Shown one piece after another: positions 1-19,901 of a stretch of 32,218 nt of DNA (within the stretch, counting starts at the first letter, position 1; the number at the start of each line of letters is the position of its first letter). Position numbers and translations under genes: made by a program. The stretch is taken from contig JAQWDY010000003.1 of the NCBI GenBank assembly GCA_028705215.1, positions 22,409 to 54,626 of the forward strand. The letters are read 5' to 3'. Source of the DNA: Patescibacteria group bacterium. Its GTDB lineage: Bacteria > Patescibacteriota > Patescibacteriia > Patescibacteriales > UBA12465. A model generated the notes under the pieces. The model saw only the letters and a list, made by a program, of their open reading frames with translations, was not told the DNA's origin and made no database searches.

Positions 1-1
1 A

Positions 2-97
2 AAAAAAGTTGCTAAGAAAAAACCAGCTGTAAAGAAAGCCGTTAAAAAGGTGGTAAAAAAAGTTGCTAAGAAAAAACCAGCTGCTAAGAAAAAATAA
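2..97 (+). CDS. C-terminal end of a Lys/Ala/Val-rich basic protein (histone H1-like / basic-tail type), truncated at the window start
   Basis: Open frame from base 2 reads KKVAKKKPAVKKAVKKVVKKVAKKKPAAKKK and stops at TAA 95-97; no start codon inside the window. Confidence 0.7.
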   Translation, partial: KKVAKKKPAVKKAVKKVVKKVAKKKPAAKKK

Positions 98-18237: not shown

Positions 18238-19569
18238 ATGCCAAGAAGAAAAAAAACGGCGTCTGATGCGCCAGTTGTTAGAACTACAAGAAAAAATGAT
18301 AAATTGCCGACTCGTTTATTGGGAATGAAAGATTTTTCTTATTTTGAGCAAGCTTGTTTTGATTTTGCGCTATCAAGAGCGCGGCACTTGGCTCGGGTTT
18401 ATGGCTTTAAATCAATTAAAACGCCAATTATAGAAAGTTTTGATTTATATAAAAAAACTGTTCGTCACGAAAATGAAAAAGAGATCTACAGTGTCGATGG
18501 TGACAAGGGAGAAAAGCCTGTTCTGCGTCCAGAGCTTACACAAGGAATTATTAGGTCATATTTGGAAAATAATCAGGAAATTGAAAATAAGGTAGCGAAG
18601 CTGTATTCAATTGGGCCAGTGTTTCGTCGGGAAAAATTACAAAGTGGATATTATCGTGAATCAACGCAGTTTGACTTAGAGGTGATAGGGGCAAGAAAGC
18701 CAATGACTGAAGCTTTGTTAATTGCTTTAGCGAGTAATTTTTTTGCTGATATGCAAGTAGATGTTCAATTGCAGATAAATAGTATTGGTGATTTAGTTTG
18801 TCGTAAAGAATATTGTGCCAAATTGTCTAATTTTTATAAGGAGAGAGGCAAGAAATCAAAGCTTTGTGTTGCTTGTAAAAATAATTTAACAAAGAACTGT
18901 TTAAGTTTATTAGATTGCAAACAAGAAGCTTGTGTTAAATTAAGAGAGGGCGCACCTCAAATTGCTGATTTTCTATCAGAAGCAAGCCGTGATTACCTTG
19001 CTAAAACATTAGAAATATTAGATGAGCTAAAAATTAATTATAATTTTAACCCCTATTTGGTAAGAGGATTAAATTATTACAATGATATAGTTTTTGAATT
19101 TTGGCCTATTAATAAAGACGATTCAGTTGGAAACCTTGCTTTGGCCGGAGGTGGACGTTATGATAATCTAATTGAAAACCTAGGCGGCTTAAATTTGCCC
19201 GCCTCGGGACTTGCCATAGGTTTAGAAAGGGTTGTGTCACGGGTAAGAGATAAGGCAGCTTTGACAAATGTAGAAGAAAGCGATATAGTATTTATTGCTC
19301 AATTGGGAGATCAGGCTAAATTAAAAGCACTGCAGCTATCAAATGAATTGTTAGCTCTTGGTTATAATGTAAGGCAATCACTTATTACCGATAGTTTAAA
19401 AGAGCAATTAGAAGAAGCAGCGAAATTAAAAGCAAAGGTTTGTCTGATATTGGGCAAAAAAGAAATAATGGATGGCACCATTTTAATGCGTGATATAGAT
19501 TCTGGTGCTCAGGAAACAGTTGTTTTCAAAAAAGTAAAAGAGCGATTGGCAAAAAGGATGAGCTCTTAA
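18238..19569 (+). CDS. hisS: Histidyl-tRNA synthetase, divergent
   Basis: VLRPELTQGIIRSY, FRREKLQSGYYRESTQFDLEVIG, YLVRGLNYYNDIVFEF, LAGGGRYDNLIENLGG, GLAIGLERV, C-terminal anticodon-binding-like domain. Confidence 0.9.
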   Translation: MPRRKKTASDAPVVRTTRKNDKLPTRLLGMKDFSYFEQACFDFALSRARHLARVYGFKSIKTPIIESFDLYKKTVRHENEKEIYSVDGDKGEKPVLRPELTQGIIRSYLENNQEIENKVAKLYSIGPVFRREKLQSGYYRESTQFDLEVIGARKPMTEALLIALASNFFADMQVDVQLQINSIGDLVCRKEYCAKLSNFYKERGKKSKLCVACKNNLTKNCLSLLDCKQEACVKLREGAPQIADFLSEASRDYLAKTLEILDELKINYNFNPYLVRGLNYYNDIVFEFWPINKDDSVGNLALAGGGRYDNLIENLGGLNLPASGLAIGLERVVSRVRDKAALTNVEESDIVFIAQLGDQAKLKALQLSNELLALGYNVRQSLITDSLKEQLEEAAKLKAKVCLILGKKEIMDGTILMRDIDSGAQETVVFKKVKERLAKRMSS

Positions 19570-19600
19570 AAATAAATTATTTATTTAATAATTAGAAAGA

Positions 19601-19607
19601 GAGGTGG
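19601..19607 (+). promoter_or_regulatory. Strong Shine-Dalgarno sequence (GAGGTGG) for rpsU
   Basis: GAGGTG complements the canonical anti-SD core; 7 nt between GAGGTG and ATG 19614. Confidence 0.85.
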
Positions 19608-19613
19608 ATTCAA

Positions 19614-19844
19614 ATGGCTGATTTTAAAAGAAAACCAGGCGAAAGTTTTGAAGGTTTTCTTAGAAAATTCAAAAGAGGCTTAAAAAATAGCAAGCGCTTA
19701 GAAAAAGCAAGATCGAAGCAGCATTTAGAGCCAAAGACAACAAAGCGTTTAAATAAGAAGAAAGCGTTATCAGGAATAGCTTTGCAAAAAAAGAATGAAA
19801 TTCTAAGAAAAACTGGAAAACTACAAGAAACAAGACGTCGTTAA
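19614..19844 (+). CDS. rpsU: 30S ribosomal protein S21 (bS21)
   Basis: KRKPGESFEGFLRKFKRGLKNSKRLEKAR... basic 76-aa protein matching the S21 pattern. Confidence 0.9.
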   Translation: MADFKRKPGESFEGFLRKFKRGLKNSKRLEKARSKQHLEPKTTKRLNKKKALSGIALQKKNEILRKTGKLQETRRR

Positions 19845-19865: not shown

Positions 19866-19894
19866 AAAAAAGAGTCAAAATTTGACTCTTTTTT
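19866..19894. terminator. Bidirectional Rho-independent terminator between convergent rpsU and rel
   Basis: AAAAAAGAGTCAAAATTTGACTCTTTTTT, near-perfect palindrome with A-run and T-run on either side. Confidence 0.88.
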
Positions 19895-19901
19895 GTTTCC
19901 T

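Follow-up and report, generated by a model that had tools for sequence, protein, structure and literature searches.

The 32,218-nucleotide stretch of DNA analyzed here (the window) raises the question of why rpsU, the gene for ribosomal protein bS21, should carry a strong Shine-Dalgarno (SD) sequence among starts that have none, and whether S21 thereby controls its own synthesis through the 3′ tail of 16S rRNA. The first-pass annotation had proposed an arrangement like that of Flavobacterium, with S21 as the cause of SD-independent translation. Based on the analysis presented herein, the rpsU element is real and strongly conserved, and it represents a known kind of translational control in a new phylum and in an altered form. 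From the combined analysis we regard S21 feedback through this element as probable.

The data are from metagenome-assembled genomes. The one that holds the window has 746 kb in 36 contigs (G000, 99% complete), and among named organisms it is closest to Candidatus Falkowbacteria and other Patescibacteria, in line with the guess of a Patescibacteria-like host. Its single 16S gene ends ...GGATCACCTCCTTTCTAGGGAG with the anti-SD (CCUCC) intact, and the tail GGATCACCTCCTTTCTA is nearly invariant across the order. The conserved 5′ edge of the rpsU motif, described below, suggests that the mature tail extends to ...UUUCUA. The relevant features of the window are as follows, with energies in kcal/mol.

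19614..19844, forward strand: rpsU, ribosomal protein bS21, 76 aa, supported by domain and profile matches; single copy in the genome.
19593..19606, forward strand: extended bulged SD of rpsU, UAGAAAG-[A]-GAGGUG, which forms a 13-bp helix with the tail of 16S rRNA, CACCUCCUUUCUA.
19570..19592, forward strand: rest of the hisS-rpsU intergenic leader, AT-rich and not conserved; centroid structure without a stable fold over the SD.
19866..19896, forward strand: inverted repeat AAAAAAGAGTCAAAATTTGACTCTTTTTT 3′ of rpsU, a likely terminator read by eye, which the pattern scan did not report.
18238..19569, forward strand: hisS, histidyl-tRNA synthetase, the upstream neighbor, without an SD (−1.5).
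1..97, forward strand: 3′ terminal part of the gene for an H1-like, Lys/Ala-rich protein (G000 C27:22152-22505); its start, with a perfect SD (−23.8), lies just outside the window.

The rpsU gene is flanked by hisS and, on the opposite strand, by a RelA/SpoT-like gene. Its product hits the bS21 models PF01165 (E=2.8e-4) and TIGR00030 (E=4.7e-5) with scores under their curated cut-offs, and among solved structures a profile built from the relatives of the product finds bS21 chains (best E=1.4e-7). A search at rpsU for an mRNA hairpin or a known RNA family found none.

The rpsU leader, TTAGAAAGAGAGGTGGATTCAA-ATG at 19592-19616, is where the first-pass annotation had placed it, but the helix is longer than described there: UAGAAAG (19593-19599) and GAGGUG (19601-19606) pair on either side of a bulged A (19600), and the helix ends 7 nt 5′ of the ATG. 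With the genome's own 16S tail, GAUCACCUCCUUUCUA, the computed duplex energy, which refers to RNA outside the ribosome, is −18.4 kcal/mol, versus +1.6 to −5.0 kcal/mol for the 22 other listed starts of the window, and rpsU is indeed the only one of the 23 with a real SD. A scan of both strands of the window (64,396 20-mers) found no other site as strong as −18.4, and the same value was attained by 8 of 20,000 composition-preserving shuffles.

Absence of the site from relatives, which had been named as evidence that would count against the proposal, is not what was found. With related genomes counted separately, rpsU leaders at or below −12 make up 50 of 53 in the order, 15 of 16 in the same class and 30 of 44 in other Patescibacteria, and none of 249 non-rpsU genes of the family reaches −13. 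In 90-100% of the strong order-level leaders there is pairing to CCUCC, CUA and most other bases of the tail, and the flanks vary; the commonest form is UAGAAAGG-N-AGGUG, where N is any base, such that all 13 tail bases are matched with one bulged base. The motif TAGAAAGGNAGGTG has 32 matches in 60 whole genomes, at most one per genome, and 31 of these lie directly upstream of rpsU, while a reversed-motif control over the same 60 genomes gave 0 matches. The exception is G049, where the motif precedes the gene of a 71-aa CxxC protein (L291:1144-1359, minus strand, C21) and the genome's own rpsU has no SD. A search of this CxxC protein against NCBIfam returned no match.

Two genomes have altered 16S tails, CACUUCC in G045 (L212) and UAUCUCC in G042 (L198). 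In G045 the rpsU leader (GGAAGU) pairs at −12.4 with its own tail versus −8.2 with the canonical one, and the pilin leader (AGAAAGGAAGUGAUU) at −21.7 versus −17.9. A matching alteration (CTTCC...GGAAG) in the pre-16S sequence 3′ of the tail speaks against an error of sequencing. In G042, rpsU retains only the UAGAAAGG half. This compensatory change, read from the sequences of one clear genome and two genes, is evidence that pairing with the rRNA is what selection would keep at rpsU.

The helix is also of an unusual form. Interrupted helices occur in 41 of the 50 strong order-level rpsU leaders, a number to which short additional pairings outside the main helix contribute. An intact GGAGG is present in 17 of the 50 versus 19 of 21 other strong-SD leaders (the sequences are related, and no P value is given). 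The position of the insertion varies (GG-N-A, G-N-GA, GAG-N-GU), and because it falls at differing places the interruption itself may be under selection.

We turn to the genome as a whole, where pattern searches had whole-genome scope and pairing statistics came from a sample spanning about 47% of its length (about 350 kb), with genes and hence starts set by a longest-ORF rule and mock windows placed 40 nt further upstream of each start. In this sample SD pairing lies below chance, with 28 starts versus 93 mock windows at ≤−5 and 11 versus 44 at ≤−7 (n=293), which bears out the expectation that most genes are SD-less. SDs are likewise scarcer than chance in the family. Many equally strong SDs, above all at ribosomal-protein genes, were the other finding that would have told against the proposal, and they were not seen: a run of ribosomal-protein and elongation-factor genes on contig C19 is without comparable SDs (the strongest are EF-Tu at −8.6 and S12 at −6.7), the S6 and S18 genes also lack strong ones, and the pairing of rpsU is the strongest among the ribosomal protein genes examined, which are S6, S18 and the C19 run, a subset of all.

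The starts show signals of another kind. G at positions −14 to −1 is reduced to about 2-10%, A is enriched around −13/−12 and −6 to −4, and T occupies −1 in 78% of 293 starts (giving UAUG, as at 1180, 2851, 5415 and 18238 in the window). T at −1 is seen in every gene context, operon-internal genes included, and is less frequent in the class and phylum. Possibly, U(−1) pairs with A37 of the initiator tRNA and so extends the start codon pairing. Leaderless transcription as a general cause of SD-lessness was considered and rejected, since genes inside operons have the G depletion and the U at −1 as well. As separate observations, the apparent initiator tRNA-Met of this genome (L010:8972-9045, G000 C9) carries C33 in place of the near-universal U33 (loop CCCATAA), and A29:U41 for G29:C41, features also present in L198 (G042) and L204 (G037), and S18 (L231; G000 C27:2713-2868) carries a CxxC...CxxH pattern (CHFC ... 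CAWH) that is possibly zinc-binding.

The claim that only rpsU has a strong SD, which stands within the window, does not extend to the genome, in which at least four non-rpsU genes lie at or below −17 with unbulged SDs; rpsU as the sole SD gene was thus rejected genome-wide.

G000 C3:11119-11568: type IV pilin, SD −17.7.
C20:4063-5304: membrane protein, perfect SD −17.6.
G000 C27:22152-22505: H1-like Lys/Ala-rich (KPAAKK) protein, perfect SD −23.8.
L113/L293: small pilin-like secreted protein, perfect SD −22.9.

Major type IV pilin genes (L252-L281) of many relatives likewise have very strong SDs, to −22 kcal/mol and mostly unbulged, in a clade otherwise SD-poor.

Across the phylum, the S21 profile was unmatched in 59 of 241 sampled Patescibacteria genomes, and SD use in these is not clearly different from that in S21-positive ones. 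Restoration of SD use upon loss of S21 was not seen in 14 S21-negative Patescibacteria genomes, in some of which S21 was possibly missed and among which lineage effects remain, and G270, of the same class and with no detectable S21, is SD-poor. Since S21-lacking Patescibacteria are not more SD-using, S21 need not silence the anti-SD. In those genomes outside the class that have the extended rpsU SD, SDs are in use (110 starts versus 54 mock at ≤−7). Tracking of SD-lessness by the extended rpsU SD was therefore not seen across the phylum, and because the element is found equally in SD-using members it does not track sequestration of the anti-SD. Neither of these two results supports the idea that S21 is the cause of SD-independence. 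The S21 of this genome has no Tyr, as had been noted, and the C-terminal part of its relatives has no invariant Tyr.

Based on these data we put forward a hypothetical mechanism in which the rpsU leader is an extended SD acting as a translational feedback element on S21, a reading that we favor with somewhat better than even confidence. The leader would pair with essentially the whole single-stranded 16S tail, one bulge usually breaking the GGAGG core, in a genome where SD pairing is absent from most other starts and the A/U-rich leaders mostly have U next to the AUG. We propose that the long helix gives rpsU mRNA preference in initiation on 30S subunits that have no S21 or whose tail S21 does not hold, and that S21-replete subunits initiate on this mRNA less, such that S21 output would track demand. 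S21 feedback is the best reading because the genomic signature is mostly that of F. johnsoniae. The intact tail, the SD depletion, the 13-bp complementarity, its conservation, the near-exclusive occurrence of the motif at rpsU and the covariation are read directly from the genomes; the S21 dependence, the direction of feedback and the role of the bulge we infer. Against the proposal, at least four other genes pair equally strongly, so that S21 is not set apart by the strength of its SD, the motif of G049 lies at the CxxC protein gene and not at rpsU, and the tyrosine of the Bacteroidia protein, Tyr54, is not conserved. The results from S21-lacking and from SD-using Patescibacteria also weigh against it.

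Feedback could operate in either of two alternative ways, through a sequestration pocket or through docking that does not depend on S21. The former would be the full Bacteroidia-type system, in which a pocket of S21, S18 and S6 sequesters the tail in most ribosomes, the genome has lost its SDs as a result, and use of the rpsU SD is confined to ribosomes that lack S21. The SD depletion below chance, the intact anti-SD and the extended rpsU SD are all as described for that system (PMC9976891), but the equivalent of Tyr54 is absent, S21-lacking genomes are not SD-using, SD-using lineages also have extended rpsU SDs and other strong-SD genes persist, and we consider it rather unlikely in this strict form. 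The latter supposes that S21 normally aids pairing between tail and mRNA, a role in mRNA association with the small subunit being stated in PMC9723584, and that the long rpsU helix forms unaided, which would give the same feedback output with no sequestration. It accounts for the presence of the extended rpsU SD in Patescibacteria with and without SD use; alone, however, it does not account for the genome-wide SD depletion or for the bulge, and we give it a limited chance, a little above that of the pocket. Feedback that needs no sequestration fits the data from S21-negative and SD-using genomes at least as well as the strict version.

It is also conceivable, although doubtful in our view, that the element is a plain strong SD for output, by which a few abundant proteins (S21, the major pilin, the Lys/Ala-rich DNA-binding-like protein) are boosted with no feedback on S21. 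The strong SDs at the genes for the type IV pilin, the H1-like protein, the membrane protein and the pilin-like secreted protein, with strong pilin SDs recurring in relatives, are what would be expected of such boosting; EF-G, EF-Tu and the C19 ribosomal proteins, expected to be abundant too, are nevertheless without comparable SDs, and the rpsU helix differs in form from those of the other genes, given its mostly broken GGAGG, its reach to the last tail base and its usual bulge. Finally, rpsU might be a relic, a gene that is merely late in losing its ancestral SD. More distant Patescibacteria do use SDs, but the complementarity here exceeds that of a normal SD in length and runs to the tail's end, the site is kept in nearly all order-level leaders while the flanks drift, and it follows an anti-SD mutation, making this explanation highly improbable.

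A broader and more tentative proposal, which we hold at well below even confidence, is that the bulged, full-tail rpsU SD is of old standing and widely distributed in Patescibacteria, serves S21 homeostasis with no need for sequestration of the anti-SD and arose independently of the one in Bacteroidota. In that case S21-poor ribosomes would be specialized for rpsU and, in this clade, perhaps for pilin mRNAs too. In the literature searched, control of S21 by S21-lacking ribosomes has been shown only in Bacteroidota, and no open-access paper was found that links Patescibacteria with rpsU SDs, which is not proof of absence. That Patescibacteria show the same signature, although their helix differs and the key tyrosine is absent, suggests that control of S21 dosage via the 16S tail is ancient or was repeatedly invented. 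Patescibacteria would also be a natural system in which to separate S21 feedback from anti-SD sequestration.

In F. johnsoniae, biochemistry and genetics have established that the 16S tail is held by S21 in concert with S18 and S6 and that ribosomes without S21 translate rpsU preferentially (PMC9976891). The genome studied here resembles F. johnsoniae and the Bacteroidota in its intact anti-SD, in SDs that are rarer than chance and in an rpsU SD below −13 kcal/mol that is the strongest among the sampled ribosomal protein genes, and to this extent the arrangement first proposed is the same. Covariation of the rpsU SD with the altered anti-SD of Chryseobacteria has likewise been reported (PMC8710568), and G045 provides a natural counterpart. 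There are also differences. The Bacteroidota rpsU SD comprises 9-13 consecutive base pairs (McNutt et al. 2023, PMC9976891), whereas the helix here has 7+6 bp around a bulged A; Tyr54 of bS21, which stacks on A1534 there, is not conserved; and pilins and a few other genes share the strong SDs, while in Flavobacteriales rpsU is typically the lone strong-SD gene. The phylum is a different one, and extended rpsU SDs occur also in its SD-using members. As for SD-less starts, those of Bacteroidetes are also A-enriched around −12/−13 and −6 (Baez et al. 2019, PMC6847099), but the dominant signal here is the U at −1, operon-internal genes included. The rpsU of Chlorobia, again in a different phylum, is similar in having an extended SD without the Tyr54 signature among mostly SD-less mRNAs, with a mechanism that is again putative (PMC9976891).
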